Source: a virus
IMG/VR virus record: IMGVR_UViG_3300042289_000915
Coordinates: 1 to 36,328 of that record
DNA: 36,328 nucleotides
Reading direction: 5' to 3' (one strand)
Under the pieces are notes generated by a model. It saw only the letters and a list, made by a program, of their open reading frames with translations. It was not told the DNA's origin and searched no databases. The position numbers and the translations under genes are program-made. Of the stretch, positions 3,179-34,216 are shown piece after piece; within the stretch, counting starts at the first letter, position 1; each line of letters opens with the position of its first letter.

Positions 3179-3859
3179 ATGTCAAATTCAACCAATAAAG
3201 AGCAAGATAACGATCTAAATCTCATCCACTCTTATAATATAGATGTTAAAAATAGAGAACTATATTTACATTCATATTTATCTGATGATGAAGAAACCGG
3301 CGTAGATTATAGATCTGCTGTAATTTTTGAAAAAAATCTGAGATATTTGAATACATTATCTCTAGAACCAATATTAGTACATATGCATTTACCCGGTGGA
3401 GATTGGCAAGATTGTCTAGGTATATATGATTCAATTAAAGCCAGTAAAAGCAAAGTAATAATTATTGCAGCGGCAAAAGTTGAATCCAGCAGCAGCGTAT
3501 TATTACAAGCTGCTGATCTTAGAATACTGATGCCAAATACAAATTTTTTAATACATTATGGTTCTTTAAGTATTGATAATGAACACAAAGCAGCTTTAAG
3601 TATGGTGCAATGGAGCGATAAAGAGAGCGAAAAGATGATAGATATATTTACAGAAAAGTGTATGAATAGTAGTATATCTAAAGAAAAAAATTGGAAACGC
3701 ATGATGGCCAGAAAACATATTGTTAGTCAATTGGCAACCAAAAGAGATTGGATATTAACTGCTGAAGAAGCTGTAAGGTATGGTTTTGCCGATGGTATAT
3801 TTGGTACAAAAAAATATCCTAGTATAGATTCTATTAAAAATATTATCAAAAAAACATGA
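3179..3859 (+). CDS. ClpP-like serine protease (S14/crotonase fold), possible head protease
   Basis: This 226-residue protein matches the ClpP fold: LVHMHLPGGDWQDCLGIYDSI, then the active-site region VESSSSVLLQAADLR. Aligned with E. coli ClpP (S97/H122/D171), the triad would be S103 (in E-S-S-S-S), H126 (NTNFLIHYGS) and D190 (TKRDWILTAEEAVRYGFADGIF); all three are present. The glycine of the usual G-x-A-S motif is missing, so the oxyanion region is unusual. In phages such proteins act as head-maturation proteases or alter the host Clp system. Its place in the structural module, without a ClpX gene here, favours maturation. It overlaps the DeoC-like gene by 4 bases. Confidence 0.85.
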   Translation: MSNSTNKEQDNDLNLIHSYNIDVKNRELYLHSYLSDDEETGVDYRSAVIFEKNLRYLNTLSLEPILVHMHLPGGDWQDCLGIYDSIKASKSKVIIIAAAKVESSSSVLLQAADLRILMPNTNFLIHYGSLSIDNEHKAALSMVQWSDKESEKMIDIFTEKCMNSSISKEKNWKRMMARKHIVSQLATKRDWILTAEEAVRYGFADGIFGTKKYPSIDSIKNIIKKT

Positions 3860-5513: not shown

Positions 5514-5918
5514 ATGGCAGCAACTCAATATAATTTTAACATTGAACAAGGGTCTTCGTTCAGGTTAAGTCTAACATATAAAGATAGCGATGGTAATATA
5601 ATAGACTTAACCAATTATTGTGCTAGACTAACCATGAAAATAGGTAGCGATGAATATAAAGTATTTAGTAGTTTAGAAACTAATTTTGATGAATATAAAT
5701 TTACTATTGACGGCCCTCAAGGAACTATTAATCTATTAATTCCCGCAGAAGCCACCAATGACTACAACTTTAATTCTGCTAAATATGATCTAGAATTACA
5801 AAGTCCACAGGATCTATATGTTGGTGGAGGTAAATATACTATACGAGTTTTATATGGAACCATTACTATTATTAAACGATTTAGTCAATCAACAACATTA
5901 CTAGACTGCGCATTATGA
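5514..5918 (+). CDS. Baseplate/tail accessory protein of the 'GSSF..T..DSDG..IDLTNY.AR..M' family
   Basis: This 134-residue, all-beta protein has the pattern I know from many phage tail modules: N-terminal YNFNIEQGSSFRLSLTYKDSDGNIIDLTNYCARLTMK, a middle 'GTINLLIPAEATNDYNF', and a C-terminal YDLEL......GKYTIRVLYGTITIIKRFS. Such proteins resemble the Ig-like domains of BppU/upper baseplate proteins and usually sit just before a large tail fibre gene, as here. It overlaps the fibre gene by 4 bases (ATGA). It probably connects the fibre to the baseplate or helps its assembly. The family recognition is fairly sure; the structural role is inferred. Confidence 0.7.
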   Translation: MAATQYNFNIEQGSSFRLSLTYKDSDGNIIDLTNYCARLTMKIGSDEYKVFSSLETNFDEYKFTIDGPQGTINLLIPAEATNDYNFNSAKYDLELQSPQDLYVGGGKYTIRVLYGTITIIKRFSQSTTLLDCAL

Positions 5919-8900
5919 GCTGTTTTGATGTACAAATTTTAGATCCTAATATTAACACCATAGAGATTGAAACTTGTATTGGTGATCAGCCATCATCTAT
6001 AGATATAGTAACTTATGATAATACATCAATAGTAGAAGTTAATCATTGTATAGCATTACTTCCGTCAGAAATTAATGAGTTAATACCTGTTCTAGATATT
6101 ATTGGTGGTAGTGGAATTTTAGTCTCTAGTAGTAGTGGACTATATACAGTATCATTATCTAATCCAACTATTTCTGCTAGTGGTATAGTTGATCTAACAG
6201 AAGCTGTACAAGATATTATTGGTAATAGTGGGTTATTAGCTGGAAATTATATTAATATTAATTATAACGATAATACAGGATTTACTACAATATCTGCCAC
6301 TGGATTACAACCTAGTGGCAATTATGCTAATGCTATTCATACTCATACTAGTAGCGATATAACAGATTTTAATAGTAGTGTAAGCGGTTTGTTACCAAGT
6401 GTAACTGGCACTGGCTATGTCTCTTCGTCTTTTTCTAATAATCTTTATACTATTTCTGTAACAGGACTACAACCTAGTGGAAATTATAGCGTTGATGGTC
6501 ATACTCATACAAGCTCTAATATTACAGATTTTAACTCTAGTGTTAGCGGACTTCTTCCTGTTAAGAATATTAGTGCTGGCAGCGGCATAGGAATATCTTC
6601 AGTTTCTGGTGATTTTACAGTTAGTGTTACTGGGACTTTTGGTCTTACTGACGAAGAAGTTGATGATAGAGTAAGTAATTTATTAGTGGGTGGTAATTAT
6701 GTAAATCTTAATTATAATGATTTAGGAAACAGTCTAATAATTTCTGTTACTGGCGTTCAGCCAAGTGGAAACTATAGTTTAATTGGACACTCTCACAATA
6801 CTAGTGATATAACAGACTTTAATAGCGGAGTAAGCGGACTCCTTCCTAGCGTTAGTGGCAGCGGATATATAGTATCGTCTTTCGCTAATAATATCTATAC
6901 TCTTAGCGCTAGTGGGCTACAACCAAGTGGTAACTATAGTGTTGTTGGTCATTCACATGTTATAGCTGATGTTTCGGGATTGCAAAATGCTTTAGATAGT
7001 AAACAACCAAGTGGAGTTTATGCTAGTGGTATTCATTATCATATTAGTTCTGATATCACAGACTTCAATAGTGCTGTTAGTGGATTGATTCCTCCGTCTA
7101 ACTTTACTTCACTAACTGGATTAAGCGGAATAGTTGTCACTAATAGTGGCACAAATTATTTTGTAACATTAAGTGATCCTACTATTCAACTAGCTGATAT
7201 TACAGATCTATCTTCTAATGCTAGAACTTTTTTATTAACACCGTCTAGTAGTAATCTTAATACTTTAATTAGTGATGAAACTGGATCTGGAAATTTAGTA
7301 TTTAATAATAGTCCCGCTTTTAGTGGCACCCCAACTGTGCCAACAGCACCAAGCGGAACAAATTCTACCCAAATTGCTAGCACAGCATTTGTTAGAACAG
7401 AAATCAGTAACCTAATAGACTCCGCCCCATCAACACTAGATACTCTTAATGAATTAGCAGCAGCACTAGGTGACGATCCTAATTTTGCCACCACTATTGC
7501 TAGTGGATTGGGACAAAAGGCAAATTTAAGCGGAGCTATTTTCACTGGATCAGTAACTATTCCTAGCGGAACTGGCAATTTTGATAGTTTAACAGTTGGA
7601 GGGGTGGTGGTGAGCATTAGTGGTCACTCTCACGTTACTAATGACATCACAAACTTTAATTCATCCGTTAGTGGACTACTTCCAGTTAAAGACATATTAG
7701 CTGGTAGCGGTATTTCTGTATCATCGTCTAGTGGTATTTATACTATTAATGCTGATATTAGTGGTGTCATAACAGAAGTTATTCAAGATAATTTAGGTAG
7801 TGGATTTTTAGTCGCTGGCACTGGCGTTCAATTAACATATGACGATCCAGCTAATACTCTAAGATTGGATAATCTTCACACTGAAATTAATGAACTTAGT
7901 TTAGAACCTCAAGGATTTGTAAATAGACTTGATAGTGTTATTAGCTTTAATGATAGTACCAGAACATTTACTATTGCTCCTAGTGGAGCAAGTTATGATG
8001 TTTATATTGAGGGAATTAAAGTTACTAAAACAACAAGCGAAAGTATTGTTATACCAACTGGAACTGCACTAAATTATCTTCATTTTAATACTGACACTGG
8101 ATTATTGGATAATAAAACAACAGGATTTAATTTTGATACTGATGTACCGATAGCTTATATTCATTGGAATGCTGATATTAATCAAAGCACATTTTTTGGT
8201 GAAGAACGTCATGGAATCCGCATGGATAGTGTTACTCATAAATGGATACACAACACTTTCGGCATACAATATATTAATGGTCTTAGTATTGGTGGATACA
8301 TCTTATTAGGTAATGGATCCTCTAACAGTCATGCTCAAATTGATATATCTGATGGTGTTTTATATCAAGAAGATATAATTATAGATATTACTAATGATAA
8401 TGGAATTAATAGTGCCAATGAATTTGTTCAAACACTTAATCCAATAGCCTATATTCCTACCTACTATCATAGTGGTTCAACGGGACAGTGGGTAAGAGAC
8501 TCTGCCACAGCGTTCCCAGTAAAATACAATGGAACACGCGCTCAGTACAATCTATTTAGTGGGGGAACTTGGACAATTCCAAACGTTACTAACGATAGAT
8601 TTTTCGCAATGTGGATTGTGGCAACAAACGATATTAATGATCCTATTCTTGCTATAGTTGGTCAAAGAGAGGATAGCAGTTTAAATAGTGCCGAGAGTCA
8701 CAATAATTGGAATGATATTAATCTTACTAATATTCCAACACAAGAAATAAGACCACTATATCGACTAATTTTTAAAACCAATTCTACCTATACAAATACG
8801 CCAAAGAGTAGCTTACAAAGTATACTAGATATACGAGTGGCTATTCAATCTACTGTTGCTGGTGTTGTTCAAAATGATCATGGTAGTTTATTCGGATTGG

Positions 8901-10198
8901 CCGATGATGATCACTCCCAATATGTGCATATTGATAATAACAGAACCATTAGCGCACTTCATACTTTTAGTAATGGTTTGAATGCTGGTGGTCTTATTAA
9001 TGCTGCTAGTGGTAGTTTTACATCATTAACTGTTAATGGAACCGGAGTTAGTCTAAGCGGCCACACTCATACCAGCAGTGATATTACTGATTTTAATAGC
9101 ACCGTTAGCGGACTATTACCTAGTGTTAGTGGAATCGGATATGCTACAACGTCATTTGCCAATAATATTTATACTGTAAGTGTTACTGGATTACAGCCCA
9201 GCGGCAACTACAGCGTTGTAGGCCATACCCACACCAGCAGTAATATTACGGACTTTAACAGTAGCGTAAGCGGATTGCTACCAATAACTAATATAGTTGC
9301 TGGTAGCAATGTAACAGTATCAACATCAGGAACTACCTATACTATATCGTCTAGTGGTACTGGTGGCGGTGGAACAACCATAACAAATTATGGTAACAAT
9401 AGATTACTAACTAGCGATGGAACATCAACAGGTATAGTTGCCGAAAGTGGTATAGTTTTTAATGATTCTACAAAAATAGTGGATATTACTTACGATACTA
9501 GTATTGGAGATAGTGGTAATGTTCCAGGATTAAGAATTACTGCTTACGATACTAATACTTCAGCTACTATGGGTGGAAGATTAATCTTTAGAAGATTTAA
9601 TGGTACAGAATCCTCACCTTCTGGTTTATTAAATAACGATACTATTGGAGCTATAATATATGCAGCACCAAATACTAGCGGTATTGCTGAGACTGTTGGA
9701 AGAATATTAGGATCTGCGGATGGGGTTCTTGGGGGATCTAATACTAGTCAACCATCAAAAATATCAATTATCACCAGCTCTGGTCCGAGCAGACTTGATA
9801 ATGAACTAACTTTAGAATCTGATGGAGAAGTATATACTAATGGATATATTACAGTAGATGACGGCATATCTGCTCCAACGCCTGTGTACAGTCTTGGAAC
9901 AGTTAGCGGAAATACTGCTATTAGTTATGATGTAGATCGACAAATACAAACAGTAACTCTTAATGGAACTAGTGTCAACTTTACAGAAGGTACCGGTTGG
10001 ACAACAGCAAATCGAAGTGTTGATGTTGTGCTTCAAATTACTGTAACTTCAACAACAACTGTTGCTTTTGATAGCGGGTTTGTAACAGATTGGTATAATA
10101 CTTCTTTACCAACTTTCTCTTCTGGTGTTTATCTTATACTATTACGTAGTATAGGATCGACGATTATACAAGGTCATTATATAGGCAAGAAAATTTAA
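5915..10198 (+). CDS. Large tail fibre / receptor-binding protein with HxH repeats
   Basis: At 1427 residues this is the largest gene in the window. Residues 1-75 form an attachment region unlike the rest. From about 142 to 1123 there are repeats of the type G-H-[TS]-H-T-S-S-[DN]-I-T-D-F-N-S-[SG]-V-S-G-L-L-P, alternating with 'YTISVTGLQPSGNYS' beta segments. The HxH pattern is known from trimeric T4 gp37-type needles, where it binds iron. A block with TVPTAPSGTNSTQIASTAFV and LNELAAALGDDPNFATTI (about 475-530) is typical of phage fibres. A non-repeated domain (about 640-990) with many aromatic residues may bind the receptor. The last 100 residues form a beta-rich tip. It is expected to be trimeric on the virion. 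Confidence 0.88.
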   Translation: MSCFDVQILDPNINTIEIETCIGDQPSSIDIVTYDNTSIVEVNHCIALLPSEINELIPVLDIIGGSGILVSSSSGLYTVSLSNPTISASGIVDLTEAVQDIIGNSGLLAGNYININYNDNTGFTTISATGLQPSGNYANAIHTHTSSDITDFNSSVSGLLPSVTGTGYVSSSFSNNLYTISVTGLQPSGNYSVDGHTHTSSNITDFNSSVSGLLPVKNISAGSGIGISSVSGDFTVSVTGTFGLTDEEVDDRVSNLLVGGNYVNLNYNDLGNSLIISVTGVQPSGNYSLIGHSHNTSDITDFNSGVSGLLPSVSGSGYIVSSFANNIYTLSASGLQPSGNYSVVGHSHVIADVSGLQNALDSKQPSGVYASGIHYHISSDITDFNSAVSGLIPPSNFTSLTGLSGIVVTNSGTNYFVTLSDPTIQLADITDLSSNARTFLLTPSSSNLNTLISDETGSGNLVFNNSPAFSGTPTVPTAPSGTNSTQIASTAFVRTEISNLIDSAPSTLDTLNELAAALGDDPNFATTIASGLGQKANLSGAIFTGSVTIPSGTGNFDSLTVGGVVVSISGHSHVTNDITNFNSSVSGLLPVKDILAGSGISVSSSSGIYTINADISGVITEVIQDNLGSGFLVAGTGVQLTYDDPANTLRLDNLHTEINELSLEPQGFVNRLDSVISFNDSTRTFTIAPSGASYDVYIEGIKVTKTTSESIVIPTGTALNYLHFNTDTGLLDNKTTGFNFDTDVPIAYIHWNADINQSTFFGEERHGIRMDSVTHKWIHNTFGIQYINGLSIGGYILLGNGSSNSHAQIDISDGVLYQEDIIIDITNDNGINSANEFVQTLNPIAYIPTYYHSGSTGQWVRDSATAFPVKYNGTRAQYNLFSGGTWTIPNVTNDRFFAMWIVATNDINDPILAIVGQREDSSLNSAESHNNWNDINLTNIPTQEIRPLYRLIFKTNSTYTNTPKSSLQSILDIRVAIQSTVAGVVQNDHGSLFGLADDDHSQYVHIDNNRTISALHTFSNGLNAGGLINAASGSFTSLTVNGTGVSLSGHTHTSSDITDFNSTVSGLLPSVSGIGYATTSFANNIYTVSVTGLQPSGNYSVVGHTHTSSNITDFNSSVSGLLPITNIVAGSNVTVSTSGTTYTISSSGTGGGGTTITNYGNNRLLTSDGTSTGIVAESGIVFNDSTKIVDITYDTSIGDSGNVPGLRITAYDTNTSATMGGRLIFRRFNGTESSPSGLLNNDTIGAIIYAAPNTSGIAETVGRILGSADGVLGGSNTSQPSKISIITSSGPSRLDNELTLESDGEVYTNGYITVDDGISAPTPVYSLGTVSGNTAISYDVDRQIQTVTLNGTSVNFTEGTGWTTANRSVDVVLQITVTSTTTVAFDSGFVTDWYNTSLPTFSSGVYLILLRSIGSTIIQGHYIGKKI
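6338..9283 (+). repeat. Eight HxH-type repeats inside the tail fibre gene
   Basis: The repeats have histidine pairs beginning near 6338, 6500, 6788, 6953, 7034, 7625, 9062 and 9224. Most are followed by the I-T-D-F-N-S-x-V-S-G-L-L-P segment. The protein copies are nearly identical while the DNA copies differ at many third positions. Between 7680 and 9000 the repeat is interrupted by other domains. The repeats probably form successive trimeric beta-turn units stabilised by metal ions. Confidence 0.8.
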
Positions 10199-10477: not shown

Positions 10478-10972
10478 ATGTACTATAATATTAATAATCA
10501 ACAATTAGTCGATAGTCTACCAACTAGCATAACTCTAGATAATGGAACAATAATTACTGGAGAAAATCTGGATAATAGTATTCTTGCTGAAGGTGGATAC
10601 TATTTTGTTCGTAGTGATAATCCACCTCAACCAGAAAATACAGTAGAAGATGTTTCTCAAAGAGTAGTTAATATTAATAAACCATATGTTGATATTACAA
10701 GAACATGGATACCAATTCCTATTGTGGTACCAGAAAGTATTAGCGCACGACAAGTTCGCTTATGGTTAATCGATAACGATATTAGTTTAACAAGTGTTGA
10801 GGCCGCTATTGATACTATTGTTAACGAGAAATTGAGAGAGAAAACAAGAGTAGAATGGGAATATGCTCCTTATATAGAAAGAAATCATCCTCTTATTGAA
10901 AGCCTTGGTCAATATTTAGGATTATCTCCAGAACAAATTGATCAAGGATTTGTAATAGCGTCACAGCTATGA
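10478..10972 (+). CDS. Tail fibre assembly-type protein, long paralogue
   Basis: In this 164-residue protein, residues 1-85 are homologous to the preceding 88-residue protein. Residues 90-164 (PESISARQVRLWLIDNDISLTSVEAAIDTI..) go on through REKTRVEWEYAPYIERNHPLIESLGQYLGLSPEQID. They match a domain I recognise at the end of many phage tail-fibre or tail-fibre-assembly proteins ('I..RQ.RLAL...GL...VEAAI.......A.IEWEYA....R..PLV..L...LGLT..QID..F..A..L'). It may act as a fibre chaperone or as the fibre's partner subunit. It starts 3 bases after the previous stop and overlaps the next gene by 4 bases (ATGA). Confidence 0.7.
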   Translation: MYYNINNQQLVDSLPTSITLDNGTIITGENLDNSILAEGGYYFVRSDNPPQPENTVEDVSQRVVNINKPYVDITRTWIPIPIVVPESISARQVRLWLIDNDISLTSVEAAIDTIVNEKLREKTRVEWEYAPYIERNHPLIESLGQYLGLSPEQIDQGFVIASQL

Positions 10973-11940
10973 ATACTTTCGTAAAAAATAATAGTTTATT
11001 AACCAATTTTAAATCTATTATTTATCCCATAGGTAGTAATACTGTGAATTGGTATAAAACAGCAAACTGGAATGGAACAACCACACTTACTGTTCCTGGA
11101 GGCAATGTAACTACAGTAGGAACCAACGGTGGTTCTAGTGCATACGGAACTTATGATCAAAGCGGACTAGTTGAAGAATATCTAGAAAATTACCAAAGTA
11201 CTATTAGTGGTATAATCTATATGTATAGACATGCCGCTTCATTTGATGATACCGTAAATTATTTAAGATATACTGATTTATTCAATATAAATATAGTAGC
11301 AGCTGGTGTGGTTAGAGGATTCAGAGTAGCCTCTTTAAATAATCCGCATGGATATAATAATTTCATACCAGTTTGGGATGCTAATAATGTTGCCGCACCA
11401 AACGGATATGGTTCAGTACCATATTTATTTAATGTCGCTAAATATAATGTAACAAATAATGAGTATAAAGATTTTTTAATAGCAATAGCTTCCATAGATA
11501 ATGCTCCAAGTGTTCCTAGTAATGTTTATTTAAATGATATGGCAACAAATATTTCTGGTGGTATTACTAGGACATTGATTGGAGGAAGTGGAAGTAGTAG
11601 TCAATATGTATATACTGTAAAAGCAAATATGGGCAACAAACCAATAAATTTTGTAAGCTGGAAAATGGCAGCACGATATATCAATTGGCTACATAATGGA
11701 AAACCAAGCGGGTCTCAAAATGCCGGAACTACAGAAGACGGAGCATATGATATCAATTTAAGTATACCAATTAGAAAAGTTGGAGCCAAATATTTTTTAC
11801 CAAATATTAATGAATGGACCAAGGCTGGATTTTATAAAGGTGGTTCTACAAATGCCGGATATTGGTTATATGCTACCCAAAGTAATACTGTGCCAAATAA
11901 TATTACAGCAACAGCAACAGGCGATGGTATTCTGGTGTAA
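10969..11940 (+). CDS. FGE-sulfatase (SUMF1)-fold adhesin with circularly permuted domain order
   Basis: This 323-residue protein has the formylglycine-generating-enzyme/C-type-lectin-like fold, but its halves are in reverse order. Residues 22-123 match the usual C-terminal half: NWNG......NVTTVGTNGGSSAYGTYDQSG, where 'GNVWEW' is expected but reads GLVEEY, then a degenerate 'RGGSF' region and the ending RGFRVAS. Residues 132-320 match the usual N-terminal half: GYGSVPYLFNVAKYNVTNNEYKDFL, KANMGNKPINFVSW..AARYINWLHNG, TTEDGAYDI, KYFLPNINEWTKAGFYKGG, YWLYATQSNTVP. The catalytic cysteines of true FGE are absent, so binding rather than catalysis is expected, as in phage variable adhesins. It lies among tail-fibre genes. 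The family is fairly certain; permutation is my reading of the order of motifs. Confidence 0.75.
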   Translation: MNTFVKNNSLLTNFKSIIYPIGSNTVNWYKTANWNGTTTLTVPGGNVTTVGTNGGSSAYGTYDQSGLVEEYLENYQSTISGIIYMYRHAASFDDTVNYLRYTDLFNINIVAAGVVRGFRVASLNNPHGYNNFIPVWDANNVAAPNGYGSVPYLFNVAKYNVTNNEYKDFLIAIASIDNAPSVPSNVYLNDMATNISGGITRTLIGGSGSSSQYVYTVKANMGNKPINFVSWKMAARYINWLHNGKPSGSQNAGTTEDGAYDINLSIPIRKVGAKYFLPNINEWTKAGFYKGGSTNAGYWLYATQSNTVPNNITATATGDGILV

Positions 11941-12668: not shown

Positions 12669-13829
12669 ATGGCAACTCTGTATTTCAACGGCGCGGTCGA
12701 CAGCAACTGGAACACGCTCGGCAACTGGTGGAGCGATAATGTATACTCCGTTCCTGCCACATCTTTACCTAGTAGTGCTGACGATGTTATAATGATTGCT
12801 GATTGTTTAACTAATAGCGGTAGTGGTGCTATAGTTAACACTCTTACTTTTGATGGTGGTCCATCTAATGGCAGTGTGAGCGGCGGTACTGCAACGCTTG
12901 GCATAAATATTACGGCTATTCAAGTTTCGGAATATTATACTATTGCAATTATAATAGATGCCTTCTTAACAGGCACACTAACCGCACACAAGGTTTATTT
13001 AACTGGAGCCTCTTATAGCGGAAATAATAATGGTATTATTAATGGTAGTGTATTATTTAATTCTCTTGGTTATAACAATGGTACTATCAATGGAAATGCT
13101 ACCTTTGGTGCTGGTGGATATAATAACGGAAGCGGCTCCGTAAATGGTAACGCAATTTTTGAAGCATCGTCGGTAAACGAGGGATATATCGGAAATAATG
13201 CTACATTTATCGATATGATTAACTACGGATACGTAAATGGAAATGCTATATTTTATGGAGGTGCTGATAATTCTAATACTATCAATCAACATGCTACTTT
13301 TAATGATTATTCATACAACAACTCCGGCGGCACCGTCACCGGAGACGCCACGTTTAATGATTATTCATACATCAACGAAGGCACCGTCAACGGCGATGCG
13401 ACGTTCAACGACAATTCGTACAACAACTACGGCACCTTCACCGGAGACGCGACATTCAACGACAGTTCGTACAACTACAACGGCACGCTCGGCGTAGACG
13501 CGACGTTCAACGACAGTTCGTACAACAACGAAGGCACCGTCCCCGGAGACGCCACGTTCAACGACAGTTCATATAACAGCGGCGGCGGCATTGTTATCGG
13601 AGACGCCACGTTCAACAACAATGCGTACAACGACGGCGGCGTCAGTGGCAACGCGACGTTCAACGGCAGTTCGTACAACAGCGGCACCGTCACCGGAGAC
13701 GCGACTTTCAATGACAGTTCGTACAACGGAAGCACTGGCGTTGTGAATGGCACTGAAACCTACGCCAATCGCACGCCGTTTCCGATCCCTCGCGGCATCA
13801 ACGGTTCTTCCATTCTAGGAGTTATATAA
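12669..13829 (+). CDS. Repeat-rich tail adhesin (beta-helix-like, 'GDATFNDSSYN' repeats)
   Basis: In this 386-residue protein, residues 1-45 (MATLYFNGAVDSNWNTLGNWW...., ending PATSLPSSADDV) form a capping domain that I associate with phage and planctomycete/verrucomicrobial surface proteins. From about residue 128 to 361 there are about 14 repeats of 15-18 residues, best written G-[DN]-A-T-F-N-D-S-S-Y-N-N-x-G-T-V. Regular spacing of hydrophobic and Asn residues suggests a right-handed beta-helix or stacked-turn solenoid. The last 25 residues (ETYANRTPFPIPRGINGSSILGVI) are a small tail. The start of the gene and the second half of the repeats are GC-rich with NNC/NNG codons, unlike the AT-rich middle and the rest of the genome, a sign of transfer. 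A receptor-binding role is inferred. Confidence 0.7.
   Translation: MATLYFNGAVDSNWNTLGNWWSDNVYSVPATSLPSSADDVIMIADCLTNSGSGAIVNTLTFDGGPSNGSVSGGTATLGINITAIQVSEYYTIAIIIDAFLTGTLTAHKVYLTGASYSGNNNGIINGSVLFNSLGYNNGTINGNATFGAGGYNNGSGSVNGNAIFEASSVNEGYIGNNATFIDMINYGYVNGNAIFYGGADNSNTINQHATFNDYSYNNSGGTVTGDATFNDYSYINEGTVNGDATFNDNSYNNYGTFTGDATFNDSSYNYNGTLGVDATFNDSSYNNEGTVPGDATFNDSSYNSGGGIVIGDATFNNNAYNDGGVSGNATFNGSSYNSGTVTGDATFNDSSYNGSTGVVNGTETYANRTPFPIPRGINGSSILGVI
13050..13751 (+). repeat. Tandem 45-54 base coding repeats with AT-rich and GC-rich halves
   Basis: Units begin at 13050, 13098, 13152, 13200, 13245, 13293, 13347, 13398, 13449, 13500, 13551, 13605, 13653 and 13701. All spacings are multiples of 3 (45, 48, 51 or 54). 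Units up to 13293 use A/T-ending codons. Units from 13347 on use GCG/GCC, ACG, TTC, AAC, GAC and GGC and are much closer to each other in DNA sequence (for example GCGACGTTCAACG recurs). The recent part can change length by slippage without breaking the frame. Confidence 0.85.
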
Positions 13830-23390: not shown

Positions 23391-24406
23391 GCTTAAAAGA
23401 GGATGTAAAAAAGAACTTCGGAGATAATATTCTAATTACAGCAAGTTCTGTCATGGACAAAAAACTGCTCACAATACCAGTTAGTCCATCGTTAGATATT
23501 GTATTAAATGGTGGTATTCCAGAGGGTAGTTTTGTTATTTTAACAGGACAACCCAAGTGCGGAAAAACAACAACATCCCTAGATTTCTGTGCTACTGCAC
23601 AAAAACCAGAATACGCATATGGATCTTTTAAAGATGGCCGAGAAGTGTATTACCTGAACATTGAAGGTAGATTGAAAAAAAGAGACTTAGAAGGAATACC
23701 AGGATTAAATCTTGATAAATTTCATATTGTAGGATCTCAAGAAGGTAAAATTTTACACGCAGAAGAATATCTACAAATAGGCGAACGCATTATTAATGAA
23801 TTACCAGGATCAATAGTTATTATTGATTCATATTCAGCATTATGCACCGAGGCCGAGATCACTAGCGATATGAATAAAATGCAAAGAGCAGACGGAGCAA
23901 AATTATTAGCTAAGTTTTGTCGTAAAGTAGCTAATGTTATTCCTGTTAACAAAAATATAGTTATTGGTATTACTCATCTAATGGGTAATCCCGGATATGG
24001 AAATGCTGAATGGAAAGAGAAGAGCGGTCAGGCCATTGCATATCAAACTGATATAAAGCTTAAAGCCAAGTTTTTTAAGAAGTGGAATCTATCCGATGAT
24101 AGTCCACAAATCGGACAAGAAGTAGAATGGGAAGTACTATGTTCGGCATTAGGACCACCGGGCGGCTCAATTACTAGTTATATAAGATACGGAACAGGTA
24201 TTGATAAACACATGGAGCTTTTAAATTTAGCCGTGGATCTTGGCTTAATCAATAAGGGTGGTGCTTGGTATACAATTACTACTGTTGAAGATAAGCCAAA
24301 ATTTCAAGGTTTAGAAAAAGCCAGACAGTATCTTGTTGATAATCCGAAAACATATAATGATCTTTTGGAAAAAGTCTATGAAACAATGGGTATCAAATGC
24401 AAGTAA
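23387..24406 (+). CDS. uvsX: UvsX/RecA-like recombinase
   Basis: This 339-residue protein has the RecA core: PVSPSLDIVLNGGIPEGSFVILTGQPKCGKTTT (Walker A near 53-61), VYYLNIEGRLKKRDLEGI, and Walker B-like IVIIDSYSALCTEAE. NKNIVIGITHLMGNPGYG..WKEKSGQAIAYQTDIKLKAK covers the DNA-binding loop region. It would load on single-stranded DNA and catalyse strand exchange for repair and recombination-dependent replication. Length lies between T4 UvsX (391) and RecA (about 350). A Vsr/DUF559-like nuclease and two small proteins follow, in the place where UvsY-like mediators often lie. It overlaps the next gene by 10 bases. Confidence 0.9.
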   Translation: MSLKEDVKKNFGDNILITASSVMDKKLLTIPVSPSLDIVLNGGIPEGSFVILTGQPKCGKTTTSLDFCATAQKPEYAYGSFKDGREVYYLNIEGRLKKRDLEGIPGLNLDKFHIVGSQEGKILHAEEYLQIGERIINELPGSIVIIDSYSALCTEAEITSDMNKMQRADGAKLLAKFCRKVANVIPVNKNIVIGITHLMGNPGYGNAEWKEKSGQAIAYQTDIKLKAKFFKKWNLSDDSPQIGQEVEWEVLCSALGPPGGSITSYIRYGTGIDKHMELLNLAVDLGLINKGGAWYTITTVEDKPKFQGLEKARQYLVDNPKTYNDLLEKVYETMGIKCK

Positions 24407-28850: not shown

Positions 28851-29890
28851 TTACATATTTTCGGAGTTCGTCATACAATACTCATAGTATGTGCGAACAA
28901 CAATATTTTATTGAATATGTTTTGGGTATGCGTGGACAATCTAATAAAAAAGCAGATAAAGGAACAATCTGTCATAAAGTTTTAGAATTGCTCGCTGTTA
29001 TCAAAAAAGCACAACAAGATAAAATATTATTTATAGAAGATGAAATAGTTGGTAATATAAATATTAATAAATATGATTTAGATATTCTAATCGAACAAGT
29101 ATATAACTACTATATTGGTGAATTTTCCCATCACGTTTGGGAAAGCAAAGACTTCAAAGACTGTCGTACCTGGGTTTATAAAGCCATAGAATTTAATAGT
29201 GGGGCTTTTGATCCGAGAAATAGAGAAATAGTATGTCCAGAGCAACATTTTGATATAGAGATAAAAAAACCTTGGTCTAAATATTCATATTCTACTGATG
29301 AAGGTCAGCTAGAAGGACATCTGGCTATTAAGGGAACTATTGACTTGATCACCAAAGTGAGCGATAATACATTAGAAATCGTGGATTGGAAAACTGGAAA
29401 AAGACTTGATTGGGCAACAGGACAGGAAAAAACTCCAGAAAAATTACAGAATGATCCTCAATTGATGATTTATCATTATGCTGTTAGTCATTTATATCCA
29501 GAATATGATTATGTGATTGTGACTATATATTTTATTAATGATGGAGGTCCATTCTCTATACTTTTTGATAAAAGCGATCTTGCAAAAACAGAAAAAATGT
29601 TACAGTCTAAATTTGAGGTGATCAAGAAAACTAAAAAACCTAGATTACATAAAACATGGATGTGTAATAAGTTGTGCCATTTTGGTAAAACAACTTTTGA
29701 AAACGACAATAAGATATTACCAATTATAGAATATAGAGATAATCAAGTTTGTAATCCAAACTATCCAATGACAAAATGCGAACAAATAAAACACGATATA
29801 GAGATTAAGGGTATGGACGCCGTTGTATCAGAATATAAAAAGGATGGACATTCTTTTGGTAAATACAAAGCTCCTGGTGCAGTAGAATGA
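28850..29890 (+). CDS. Cas4/RecB-like PD-(D/E)XK nuclease with non-ATG start
   Basis: I extend this to 346 residues, starting at ATT 28850 within TAATT. The first ATG (28889) would remove the conserved start FRSSSYNTHSMCEQQYFIEYVLG (my recollection of homologues: 'RSSS.NT...C.Q.YF..YVLG'). Possible starts are ATT at 28844 or 28850; AAGGA at 28831-28835 is the ribosome binding site. Nuclease residues include H42 (GTICHK), D165 (KGTIDLI), D179 and K181 (EIVDWKTGK) and QLMIYHYA. C15 with C272, C276, C301 and C310 could hold an iron-sulfur cluster as in Cas4/AddB. It may process DNA ends for UvsX. It overlaps DnaE by 4 bases. Confidence 0.8.
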   Translation: MTYFRSSSYNTHSMCEQQYFIEYVLGMRGQSNKKADKGTICHKVLELLAVIKKAQQDKILFIEDEIVGNININKYDLDILIEQVYNYYIGEFSHHVWESKDFKDCRTWVYKAIEFNSGAFDPRNREIVCPEQHFDIEIKKPWSKYSYSTDEGQLEGHLAIKGTIDLITKVSDNTLEIVDWKTGKRLDWATGQEKTPEKLQNDPQLMIYHYAVSHLYPEYDYVIVTIYFINDGGPFSILFDKSDLAKTEKMLQSKFEVIKKTKKPRLHKTWMCNKLCHFGKTTFENDNKILPIIEYRDNQVCNPNYPMTKCEQIKHDIEIKGMDAVVSEYKKDGHSFGKYKAPGAVE

Positions 29891-31764
29891 AATTTTATAA
29901 TCCTTTACATTGTCACTCGATGTATAGTCTATTAGACGGTTTATCTAAACCTCAACAAATAGCTGATAGATGTTTAGAAATAGGATCTACCGCTTGTGCT
30001 TTAACAGACCACGGTAATATAGCTGGTGCTATTAAATTTCACAAGGTTATGAAGAAAGCTGGTATAAAACCAATTCTAGGATGTGAGTTGTATATATCAG
30101 AAGATGCTTCTATAAAAGATAAGTCAAATAAAGAACTTAGCCATTTTATTGTATTGGCCAAAAATAAAACCGGGTGGCAGAATTTAATCAATCTGGTATC
30201 AGAGTCCAACAGACCAGACTTTTATTATCACAAGCCTAGGATCGATTTAAACAATCTGGAGAGATTCTGTGACGGCAACCTAATAGGTATTTGCGGCCAT
30301 CTAGGTTCTTTATTGGCCGATAAAATTACGGAAAATGATCAAATTATTCCTGATTGGAAAAATATAGGAACCAGATTGATAGATCAATTAAAAGATATAT
30401 TTGGTCCAGAAAATTTATTCTTGGAAGCCCAATTAATGGATCAAGAAAATTTACCCATACAAAAGAAATTAACAGAAGTTGTAAGGGCATTAGGTCAATT
30501 TACAAAAACCAAAATTATATGTACTCCAGACGCTCATTATGCGAATAAAGAGGATGCTTCAGATCAAAGAATACTATTGTGTAATAATCTAAAAACCACA
30601 ATGCCAGAAATTAGTAAAAAGATTAATCAAAATCAAGATATACCAATGGGGTGTTTCTTTACTTCTGATAATTATCATATTTTATCTCAAGAAGAAATTG
30701 CCGCTCTGCACACAGAAGAAGAAAGAGATAATACTCTATTAGTATCTGATATGTGCGAAAATTATGAAATTGAAAGCAAACCTAGATTGCCACCATTTGG
30801 TTGCGATGCTCCAGATGAATTCTTAAGAGAACTATGCAGAAAAGGATGGAAAGATAAAATACAAAATAATATACCAAAAGAACAGCAGAGTATTTATGTT
30901 GATAGAATCAAATATGAATTAGATATTTTACAAGGAGCTGGTCTTAGTAGTTACTTTTTAATAGTTCAAGATATTGTCAATCATGTTAGAGACAACAAAT
31001 GGCTTCCAGGACCGGGTCGAGGTAGTGCTGCCGGGTGTCTAGTATCCTACTTAATTGGTATAACCAATATTGATCCGATAAGATATAGTTTATTGTTTGA
31101 TAGATTCTACAACTCTGGACGAAATACTGGTGATCGAGTAAGTATGCCGGATATTGATGTTGACGTTCCCATTGAAAAGAGAGAAGATATTATTTCTTAT
31201 ATTAAAATGAAGTATGGATCTAGTCAGGTTTCACAGATGGTTACATTCAATACAATTAAAGGTAGAGGTGCTATTAAAGACGTATTAAGAGTATATGGTA
31301 ATATTGGTTTTGAAGAAATGAATAATATTACTAAAAATATACCCGATGAAGCTAAAATAGCAGACGAACTTCAAGAAATGAAAGACGAAACAGGTGAATC
31401 GTCAATTATACGTTGGGCATTGGAGAACCAGCCAGACAAACTAAAAGAATGGTGTCATATTGATAATAATGGACAATTTCAGGGGCCGCTTGCCAAAAGA
31501 TTTGAACAGGCTATTAGATTAGAGGGAACTAAAGTGAACCAATCTAAACATGCGGCTGGCGTCGTTATTGCTGATACCGAATTATCCAGCATATGTCCCA
31601 TGGTGTATGATACTAAAACAAAAACTAGAATAGCCGGAATGGAAATGGAAGATTTGGAAAGTATCGGAATTGTAAAATTTGATATCCTTGGTGTTGCTAT
31701 GTTGGACAAAATCATGTATATATCAGAATATCTCAAGAAAGGAGTTTCAAATGAAATTTCATGA
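29887..31764 (+). CDS. dnaE: DNA polymerase III alpha subunit, N-terminal half (PHP and palm)
   Basis: In this 625-residue protein the PHP domain is residues 1-240, with H8 and H10 (LHCHSMYSLLDG), TDHGN, and a CTPDAHYA segment. Then come the thumb and palm, with LPGPGRGSAAGCLVSYLIGITNIDPI and MPDIDVDVP (D422 and D424), QMVTFNTIKGRGAIKD, SKHAAGVVIA, and the third catalytic aspartate D599 in VKFDILG. All three palm aspartates are thus in this half. The gene stops soon after (ISEYLKKGVSNEIS) where normal DnaE goes on into the fingers. The rest is encoded at 32612. No intein sequence is visible at the split. The two halves must associate as subunits. Confidence 0.9.
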   Translation: MKFYNPLHCHSMYSLLDGLSKPQQIADRCLEIGSTACALTDHGNIAGAIKFHKVMKKAGIKPILGCELYISEDASIKDKSNKELSHFIVLAKNKTGWQNLINLVSESNRPDFYYHKPRIDLNNLERFCDGNLIGICGHLGSLLADKITENDQIIPDWKNIGTRLIDQLKDIFGPENLFLEAQLMDQENLPIQKKLTEVVRALGQFTKTKIICTPDAHYANKEDASDQRILLCNNLKTTMPEISKKINQNQDIPMGCFFTSDNYHILSQEEIAALHTEEERDNTLLVSDMCENYEIESKPRLPPFGCDAPDEFLRELCRKGWKDKIQNNIPKEQQSIYVDRIKYELDILQGAGLSSYFLIVQDIVNHVRDNKWLPGPGRGSAAGCLVSYLIGITNIDPIRYSLLFDRFYNSGRNTGDRVSMPDIDVDVPIEKREDIISYIKMKYGSSQVSQMVTFNTIKGRGAIKDVLRVYGNIGFEEMNNITKNIPDEAKIADELQEMKDETGESSIIRWALENQPDKLKEWCHIDNNGQFQGPLAKRFEQAIRLEGTKVNQSKHAAGVVIADTELSSICPMVYDTKTKTRIAGMEMEDLESIGIVKFDILGVAMLDKIMYISEYLKKGVSNEIS

Positions 31765-31926: not shown

Positions 31927-32625
31927 ATGCTGACCAAAAAAATATGTGTTTTTGACTTTGAAACCGATGGATCAAATCCTCTGGTTTGTAGTCCAGTACA
32001 ATTAGCGGCTGTTATAATAGATCCCGTTAAACTAGAGATTGTTCCAGATTCTGAATTTAATGCTTTTTTTAAACCAGAACCGATGGAGAATAATTCTGAT
32101 TATAAGTATGATACTGATATAATCGAATTTCATTCAAAGGTTAGAGGTTGTTCTCAAGAAGCGATATACGCCGCTTGGAACGAATATCCATCCCAAGAAG
32201 TTTCATGGAAAGCTTTTGTCAGTTATCTAGAGAAATATAATTGTTTTGGATATAAGAAAAAGAGTATATTCTCCGCACCTATTGCCGCTGGATATAATAT
32301 AAATAGATTTGATCTGAAAATTATACAAAGATTAAGCGAAAAATATAAAAATGTTGATGCTAAAGAAAATATCACCACTTTATTTTATCCAAGAGACGTA
32401 CTCGACATAATGAATTTGGTATTCTATTGGTTCGAAAATATCAATATCAAAAATTATTCTTTAGATACGATCAGAGAATATATGGGAATATCAAAAGATG
32501 GTGCTCATGATGCTCTGAAAGACGTAAAAGACTGTGCCAAAATATTATTAAGATTTATGAGACTACATAGAAATTTATCTGCTAAGATTATATTTAAGGA
32601 CGCCTTTTTAAATGATAAAGTTTGA
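31927..32625 (+). CDS. DnaQ-like 3'-5' proofreading exonuclease (DEDDh)
   Basis: In this 232-residue protein the DEDDh motifs are D10 and E12 (VFDFETDG), D129 (GYNINRFDLKII), and H194/D199 (GAHDALKDVKDC). Together they bind two metals and cut the 3' end after a mismatch. Length is typical of DnaQ (about 240). The gene lies between the two halves of the DnaE polymerase and overlaps the second half by 14 bases, which strongly suggests it is the proofreading subunit of the phage polymerase. Confidence 0.88.
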   Translation: MLTKKICVFDFETDGSNPLVCSPVQLAAVIIDPVKLEIVPDSEFNAFFKPEPMENNSDYKYDTDIIEFHSKVRGCSQEAIYAAWNEYPSQEVSWKAFVSYLEKYNCFGYKKKSIFSAPIAAGYNINRFDLKIIQRLSEKYKNVDAKENITTLFYPRDVLDIMNLVFYWFENINIKNYSLDTIREYMGISKDGAHDALKDVKDCAKILLRFMRLHRNLSAKIIFKDAFLNDKV

Positions 32626-34216
32626 GTGCGGTTGTGAGTTCCCAACCGATAGTTTGGATAAACAAAAAACATCTATCGATTTTGATATTCATAATATAAA
32701 TTTTAGTTGTCAAAAAACCTGGGACTTAATCTCTGAAGGAAATACCAAAGGATGTTTTCAATTAGAGAGCCGCCTTGGGCAAGCAATGAGTAAAAAACTC
32801 AAGCCTACTAATATAGAAGAATTATCCGCTTTGATTAGTATTTTAAGACCAGGATGCTTGGAAGCATATAGAGATGGAAAAAGCGTATCATATCATTATA
32901 TTGATAGAAAAAACGGTAACGAATCTATAGACTATTTTCATAGTTCGTTAGAGCCAATCTTGAAAAATACTTATGGAGAAATGGTATATCAAGAACAAGC
33001 AATGGAAATAGCCAAAGATATAGCTGGCTTTAATTTGCAAGAAGCTGATATGTTGCGTAAGGCTATAGGAAAGAAAAAGCCAGAAGAAATGGCAAAGATT
33101 AAAACCAAATTCTTAGATGGCACTAGAAGTATGGCTAAGGTATCAACAGATGAGGCCGAACAAATATTCGGATGGATAGAAAAAAGTCAAAGATATTCTT
33201 TTAATAAAAGCCATGCTGTGAGTTACGCAATCAATGCTTATATATCAGCGTATGCTAAAACACACTTTCCAACCATTTTTTTCTTATCATATCTTAGATT
33301 AGCTAAAGATAAAATTGATCCACAATTAGAAACGTTAGAATTAATTAGTAATGCAAAGGATATGGGCATTAGTGTTTTTGGACCACAATTAAAACACAAG
33401 AATAAAGATTTTGCTATTATTGATGGAAAAATATATTTCGGATTAACGAACATCAAAGGATTAGGGGATTCTGTTTATCAAAAAATATTATCAATAACAG
33501 AAAATTTAGATGTTGCATCATTAGATTGGCCAAATACATTATTAAGAATTTTGGTAAATATCAACTCGTCATCTGCTAAAGCTATAATCTTATCTGGAGC
33601 TTTAGACTATCTTAAAATTTCCAGAAATAAAATGCTATTCGAATTAAATTTGATATTGGAATTAACAGATAAAGAAATTAGTAAGTGTCTTGAAATTATA
33701 CATTCTAATAAAATTAATAATTCATGCGATATAGTTAGGCTATTACTAGCAAATAGTAAAATATCTAAAAATAGACATCCAAAAGTTTTAAGTATACTTA
33801 ACCAGTTATCGGATCCTTCTTATGCTTTAACAGACGATCCTGAGTGGGTTTCTAATAATGAAAGAGACATACTCGGCGTATCGATATCGTATGCTAAAAC
33901 GGACTTCTATGACTCGTCATACGCTAATACTGACTGTAAAACTATAAAGACATTCCCTGAAAATAAACAATTTTTTCTAATAGCTGAAATTGAAAATATG
34001 AGTGTTATTGTAACTAAAAGAGGAAAAACACCAGGACAAGAAATGTGTTTTTTGAGATTATCAGATGGTGCTGGTAGTCTGGATTCTGTTGTTATGTTTC
34101 CTGATGATTTTTCTAAATATAAGGAATTACTGCTAGAGGGCCGAGTGTTGATGTTTAATGGACAAAAGAACCAAAAAAATAATTCAATTATCGCAAAAAA
34201 ATGTTTTTTGGTATAG
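32612..34216 (+). CDS. dnaE: DNA polymerase III alpha subunit, C-terminal half (fingers and OB fold)
   Basis: This 534-residue protein starts FECGCEFPTDSL. It then continues DnaE with TWDLISEGNTKGCFQLESRLGQAMSKKLKPTNIEELSALISILRPG and YIDRKNGNESIDYFHSSLEPILKNTYGEMVYQEQAMEIAKDIAGF. ADMLRKAIGKKKPEEM and SQRYSFNKSHAVSYAINAYISAYAKTHFP follow; these are the fingers. The C-terminus (about 440-534) is an OB fold (KQFFLIAEIENMSVIVTKRG.....RLSDGAGSLDSVVMFPDDF). Catalytic aspartates are in the other half. The first 15 residues with two cysteines are absent from normal DnaE and may help the halves bind. No C-intein is present. Confidence 0.9.
   Translation: MIKFECGCEFPTDSLDKQKTSIDFDIHNINFSCQKTWDLISEGNTKGCFQLESRLGQAMSKKLKPTNIEELSALISILRPGCLEAYRDGKSVSYHYIDRKNGNESIDYFHSSLEPILKNTYGEMVYQEQAMEIAKDIAGFNLQEADMLRKAIGKKKPEEMAKIKTKFLDGTRSMAKVSTDEAEQIFGWIEKSQRYSFNKSHAVSYAINAYISAYAKTHFPTIFFLSYLRLAKDKIDPQLETLELISNAKDMGISVFGPQLKHKNKDFAIIDGKIYFGLTNIKGLGDSVYQKILSITENLDVASLDWPNTLLRILVNINSSSAKAIILSGALDYLKISRNKMLFELNLILELTDKEISKCLEIIHSNKINNSCDIVRLLLANSKISKNRHPKVLSILNQLSDPSYALTDDPEWVSNNERDILGVSISYAKTDFYDSSYANTDCKTIKTFPENKQFFLIAEIENMSVIVTKRGKTPGQEMCFLRLSDGAGSLDSVVMFPDDFSKYKELLLEGRVLMFNGQKNQKNNSIIAKKCFLV

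Follow-up and report, generated by a model that had tools for sequence, protein, structure and literature searches.

The IMG/VR virus record IMGVR_UViG_3300042289_000915 comprises 36,328 bases, all of which were analysed here (the window), and encodes a protein of 323 amino acids (aa) in which the two parts of a domain related to formylglycine-generating enzymes (FGE) stand in reverse order (Table 1). The ATG of this gene shares bases with the stop codon of the preceding gene (ATGA overlap), and a tail-fibre gene is located as the third gene upstream, which bears out the placement in a phage tail module made in a first-pass annotation based on the DNA letters alone.

In order to compare the window protein with the ordinary domain, a profile of 287 positions was built from 63 normal-order units of bacterial loci. 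The protein matched this profile twice: residues 18-123 corresponded to positions 190-286 (46.7 bits, independent E value 4.8e-14) and residues 132-319 to positions 4-189 (202.5 bits, 1.6e-61). The two matches are reversed and do not overlap, and only profile positions 1-3 and 287 are missing. Against a doubled profile, a single match of 252.4 bits was obtained (residues 18-319 to positions 190-476), showing that the complete complement of the parent domain is present in rotated order. Under loose limits (sequence E ≤ 10, domain E ≤ 1, filters off), any domain was listed for 9/200 shuffled copies with the single profile and for 12/200 with the doubled one, where a bare listing was counted without its score. 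Furthermore, the protein ends in ITATATGDG; this stretch and the first matched residues (IGSNTVNWYKTANWNG) correspond to the adjoining stretches VTADAVGNGSAGSGDNSANWNKAADWNA of the bacterial protein L099 (fetched loci are numbered L throughout). The first-pass annotation had read motifs of the C-terminal half ahead of those of the N-terminal half and expected end and start to join seamlessly; the former agrees with the complementary reversed profile matches and the latter with the neighbouring stretches in L099. The Pfam FGE-sulfatase domain (PF03781), also known as the SUMF1-like or FGS domain, was detected only at residues 153-298 (profile 36-131 of 255) with 28.7 bits, above the cut-off of 23.3, while the divergent C part escapes this model. 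The likeness to this domain thus consists in the homology of both parts and their conserved blocks, whereas the N-to-C order of the parts in PF03781 is reversed in the window protein.

Table 1. Coordinates of the permuted gene, its parts and neighbouring genes in the window.
Feature	Position	Strand	Remarks
Gene of the permuted FGE-like protein	10969..11940	+	323 aa; ATG at 10969, stop at 11940
C-terminal part of the normal FGE-like domain, here first	11020..11337	+	residues 18-123 = profile 190-286 of 287
N-terminal part of the normal domain, here second	11362..11925	+	residues 132-319 = profile 4-189 of 287
New covalent junction	11317..11403	+	residues 117-145; old C-terminal strand GFRVAS joined to old N-terminal strand NFIPVWD
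Most variable stretch of the permuted units	11182..11316	+	residues 72-116; position of the ligand-binding stretch in FGE-type proteins
Loop equivalent to the second permutation site of L063/L087	11755..11784	+	residues 263-272; uncut in the window protein
Overlapping gene just upstream	10478..10972	+	phrog_6034 (unknown function), residues 67-164
Tail-fibre gene	5915..10198	+	Pfam PTR phage tail repeats; phrog_2631 tail fiber protein, 1.2e-30
Head maturation protease gene	3179..3859	+	marks the virion-structure module

The same reversal was observed in all 74 viral units tested, including the window's own copy; this set was derived from 124 complete plus-strand units, 75 of them distinct, by clustering at 90%. 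Copies with 100% identity to the window protein are encoded on four further IMG/VR contigs, which derive from four metagenomes, and a fifth contig encodes a 47% identical protein that is colinear over residues 31-320. The nearest non-identical relative was found on contig IMGVR_UViG_3300009180_000021 (151,782 bases), which harbours ten permuted modules in four open frames and up to five modules per frame, separated by long Thr/Pro-rich or other sequence and with differing flanks. Between 36 and 72 kb of this contig (L017/L018), the open frames span 886-3754 codons and contain very long Thr/Pro repeats.

With an aligned set of eleven modules as query, 158 further viral relatives were detected; the best 80 of these were kept (77 loci), and queries with L087 and L068 added more. 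A complete permuted unit (C-A-B, with A-B as the N part) is present on 87/97 fetched virus contigs, the window excluded, amounting to 100 distinct sequences from 71 metagenomes. As the contigs were found with permuted queries, this fraction is no census. Exactly one permuted unit lies in the fetched part of 63 of these 87 contigs. The ratio of nonsynonymous to synonymous substitution rates (dN/dS) was 0.07-0.25 in five hand-picked pairs of related permuted units, indicating purifying selection. No match was obtained by tblastn with two permuted units (the window protein and one from L018) against 50,697 GenBank phage records, by a PHROGs search with the window protein or by phmmer of the latter against PDB sequences.

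The length of the linking segments distinguishes a permuted domain from a chain of normal domains with long linkers, because the fixed-length link marks the unit. In viral proteins, the link from C to N part measures 20-30 aa in 96/106 distinct junctions (median 24.5 aa); the four longest (168-277 aa) belong to the interrupted or C...N-C proteins L235, L239, L090 and L096. An N part and the C part that follows it, on the other hand, are 87-820 aa apart in 13/16 cases, the remaining three distances being 25 and 25 aa in the second-site permutants L063 and L087 described below and 8 aa at a normal-order domain in L055/L180. In bacteria, it is the N|C link that is short (median 24 aa over the 36 links that passed the end filter). 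The old termini of the viral units are therefore joined by a short, constant link and the new termini flanked by unrelated sequence. A linker inserted into an ordinary chain of normal domains was rejected on these grounds, since the C|N link is fixed and the N-to-next-C distance erratic.

Searching one genome per species with the permuted alignment as query, we found at least 407 bacterial relatives (593 stretches), of which the best 80 loci (L098-L177) were kept; judging by the record titles, some 69 of these 80 loci belong to Planctomycetota or Verrucomicrobiota. Within these loci, we counted 100 N-C adjacencies below 80 aa versus four C-N adjacencies, all of the latter inside tandem N-C-N-C proteins (L113, L116, L120, L125). 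Among the cellular matches listed, these proteins are the closest ones, with 35-50% identity in the best segment; unlike the viral permuted units they follow the N-C order, and several carry an apparent signal peptide and a C-terminal sorting-like tail. An alignment of permuted units gave a single near-full-length match in 3/4 virus records and two pieces, following the second-site pattern, in L087 (best E 1.5e-91 to 1.4e-117 in the four records); in four bacterial genomes the best match (4.0e-66) covered one part only. At E ≤ 1e-70, it matched none of 294 genomes of the L115 phylum and none of 288 genomes of the L099 phylum, a result that is supportive rather than exhaustive, with at most eight candidates scored per genome, the four virus records as sole positive control and no known match within either genome set. 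Solved FGEs likewise have the normal order. The first-pass annotation had proposed to search relatives for the ancestral order: the normal one, seen in the bacterial relatives, is probably ancestral, the trees being unrooted.

The permuted form would probably go back to a bacterial surface-protein domain that was tandemly duplicated and then trimmed. Duplication followed by loss of the outer halves, as suggested at first pass, is compatible with our data because tandem N-C-N-C bacterial and C...N-C phage proteins exist; these arrangements are the expected kind of intermediate and no proof of the route. The permuted rows cluster strongly in the trees. A quick tree built from 142 units places 73 permuted rows, among which the window's unit appears twice, on one side of a branch with a Shimodaira-Hasegawa-like approximate likelihood-ratio test (SH-aLRT) value of 96, and L055 and L068 fall on the other, bacterial side. 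A careful tree was built from 68 rows, some of them hand-chosen. Its starred branches require three or more changes for the permuted group, the normal-order viral rows L235, L237 and L239 lie outside everything else, and L068 is placed with a bacterial row (97/84); this result speaks against a single origin. Holding the 31 permuted rows as one clade was not rejected by the approximately unbiased test (p-AU 0.261; 64 rows, L235, L237, L239 and the nested L086 dropped). One origin or several are both compatible with the trees. The normal domain of L055 groups in the careful tree with units from L168 (a Pirellulales metagenome-assembled genome, MAG) and L171 (a Planctomycetota MAG; 94/78), which gives a hint, no more, of a planctomycete among the hosts.

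Structure prediction with AlphaFold2, using 74 unchanged rows (the window protein and 73 other units), yielded one compact domain with a mean predicted local distance difference test (pLDDT) of 87.6 and a predicted template modelling score (pTM) of 0.88, in which both parts are predicted to pack in cis. This model was aligned with 276 solved chains preselected by Foldseek, using a sequential aligner that is not permutation-aware and was expected to cover one part only. Nine of the 15 structures listed are formylglycine-generating enzymes or an FGE paralogue (Z 4.3-4.8), and eight of these nine align from model residue 124-130. CarF (Z 6.2), ToxD (5.9), TvpA (5.4) and a PorK/PorN chain (5.3) rank above the FGEs, and Mtd (Z 3.5) aligns with the first part, model residues 19-127 onto Mtd 147-380. 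The structural check envisaged at first pass gave a predicted compact single domain, with FGEs matching the second part and Mtd the first; the Foldseek search itself fell short, as considered below. An excerpt of PMC6328139 describes that the termini of FGE-type C-type-lectin-fold proteins form the antiparallel strands beta1 and beta5, with a putative ligand site situated in the beta3-beta5 stretch. The model contains strands at residues 116-117, 121-122 and 132-135, covering GFRVAS, a turn and NFIPVWD. The junction would link the neighbouring antiparallel strands beta5 and beta1 into a hairpin, the new ends would fall within the loop that connects the 'YWxYATQSxxxP' segment to 'GNVTTVG', and the beta3-beta5 stretch would stay unbroken as the variable binding face.

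FGE enzymes require a Cys pair in the C-terminal part of the domain. The window protein contains no cysteine at all, so that an identity as formylglycine-generating enzyme was rejected, and 63/74 units have no Cys in the corresponding stretch. Within the permuted units, residues 72-116 showed a mean entropy of 2.90 bits, versus 0.88-1.54 in the conserved blocks and 2.21 at the junction. An adhesin role of the window protein is plausible: it may sit on the virion beside the tail fibre and serve there as a binding module of non-enzymatic, lectin-like type, and in the larger relatives the domain would represent a bead on Thr/Pro-rich strings. Such a role in tail binding has parallels, since FGE-sulfatase-domain tail-fibre proteins are targets of diversity-generating retroelements (DGR) in Desulfovibrio piger prophages, according to the accessible portion of PMC12724379.

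Overall, the reversed matches, the recurrence on virus contigs, the normal order in bacterial relatives, the short and fixed C|N link and the confident single-domain model uphold the circular permutation put forward by the first-pass annotation. We consider the window protein to be one self-contained FGE-type (C-type-lectin-fold) domain that is circularly permuted and acts as a non-enzymatic lectin-like virion binding module, with a probability of about 0.78. Several observations weigh against this interpretation. The Z scores are modest (best 6.2, under the tool's safe level of 8) and refer to Foldseek-preselected chains, and Foldseek with the model at E ≤ 0.001 returned no match in PDB or BFVD. 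The variable stretch is equally variable in the bacterial relatives (2.83 vs 2.93 bits) and therefore provides no sign of phage-specific receptor selection. Moreover, a few phage proteins carry the normal order. Among the alternatives, the one given most room is a real permuted domain that serves as a structural or decorative virion module (stalk or spacer) instead of a receptor-binding adhesin; the multiple modules per frame and the long Thr/Pro linkers could indeed be architecture. This option is possible but clearly less probable. Against it, DGR variable proteins use the fold as a scaffold for ligand binding (excerpt of PMC6328139) and the ligand-site stretch is the most variable part, albeit equally so in bacteria.

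It is rather unlikely that the two parts pair in trans, either as a clasp between tail proteins or as a domain-swapped oligomer. This idea draws on L235 and L239, which have an N-only (A-B) protein together with another protein opening with a lone C part, and on multi-module proteins, where an N part is followed by a linker and then a C part. It conflicts with the short and fixed C|N link next to long and erratic N-to-next-C distances, with the many contigs showing exactly one permuted unit in their fetched part (63/87) and with the compact prediction of the single chain (pTM 0.88), although a monomer prediction is compatible with swapping. A DGR-diversified variable protein is very improbable. 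Mtd, TvpA and TaqVP share the fold class, the first two being among the structural matches, and the tail fibres of the Desulfovibrio piger prophages are DGR targets (same portion of PMC12724379); DGR variable proteins, as described in excerpts of PMC7159879 and PMC6328139, combine a C-terminal variable region with a reverse transcriptase (RT), while the window protein is permuted and an RT (PF00078, RVT_1) was found in 0/20 virus records including the window, record completeness not being given. There is therefore no sign of a DGR, and this candidate was rejected; nor does the window show a template-like repeat, the only repeat touching the gene being a 37-nt match of 73% (11173-11209 vs 23762-23798), too short and weak to count. 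Assembly error, which the first-pass annotation had named in a possible refutation, and remnants of two adjacent broken genes can practically be dismissed: nothing was found in their favour, independent contigs, four in number, carry the identical protein, the order is shared by 87 contigs, and related units are under purifying selection.

Related phages display further topologies. Two contigs, L063 and L087, possess a second permutation site with the order N-tail, C, N-head, in which the old N|C joint is intact; the loop concerned corresponds to residues 263-272 of the window protein. The second-site unit of L087 gave a poor predicted structure (pLDDT 60.4, pTM 0.58), perhaps because only two alignment rows cover all three segments. 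A third contig flagged as B-C-A (42527_000802), together with its A-B-C flag, was set aside because successive C-N modules with a 61-aa gap occur there. L055 contains a permuted unit followed by a normal-order one, and in L085, L089, L090 and L096 the C part is separated from the N part by about 275-290 residues. It is conceivable, though doubtful, that the FGE/C-type-lectin domain is topologically free in these phages (two sites, nested, interrupted, split) and that its parts may reassemble in trans as a clasp. If so, the fold would serve as an interchangeable joint for assembly in addition to being a binding module.

As additional observations, L086 (frame from base 2, codons 64-620, bases 191-1861) shows a complete normal-order domain nested in the N part of a permuted unit, and L225 likewise has a normal-order FGE-like domain nested within the permuted N part. 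Proteins with the N part only are encoded at L235:3446-4831, whose open reading frame (ORF) extends past the fetched stretch, and L239:3980-5191; later ORFs near L235:6132 and L239:6506 open with an isolated C part that is followed by a complete normal domain. The domain is thus split in these phages. In L243 (frame from base 494, 1788 codons), the C, A and B segments are scrambled (CCCACABBACABBAB).

Comparing our results to the literature, which was covered without most subscription papers and bioRxiv preprints, we encountered no description of a permuted FGE or C-type-lectin domain, excerpts of PMC8195603, PMC7159879, PMC6328139, PMC10769870 and PMC12724379 included, and the work listed on FGE-sulfatase in a phage, viral or adhesin context contained nothing on permutation. 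The accessible part of a survey of 224 jumbo phages reports that no FGS domains were found (PMC7824862), yet we detected permuted units on at least five virus contigs above 200 kb. Among natural scaffolds, the FGE/C-type-lectin fold plays a major part in ligand binding and DGR-driven diversification. Tools that depend on domain order see at best disconnected parts of the permuted form: Pfam recovers the N part only, and PHROGs and BFVD nothing. With its normal, tandem, permuted, nested and split forms, the family represents a natural series for testing how circular permutations arise and what permutation changes in a binding domain.

Farther along the window, we annotated genes for ribonucleotide reductase, UvsX-like and DnaB-like proteins, primase and DNA polymerase. 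The polymerase is about 34% identical to the nearest GenBank phage records and indicates no host. It is distributed over two ORFs, 29887-31761 and 32612-34213, with the break at position 616|617 of phrog_405 (1190 positions), and an exonuclease-subunit ORF (31927-32622, phrog_192) sits between them. A 386-aa protein at 12669-13829 contains a tandem array of units of about 51 nt, chiefly at 13290-13730. The guanine-cytosine content of the array is 53.5%, compared with 33.4% in the window overall, as though it had been acquired from another source.
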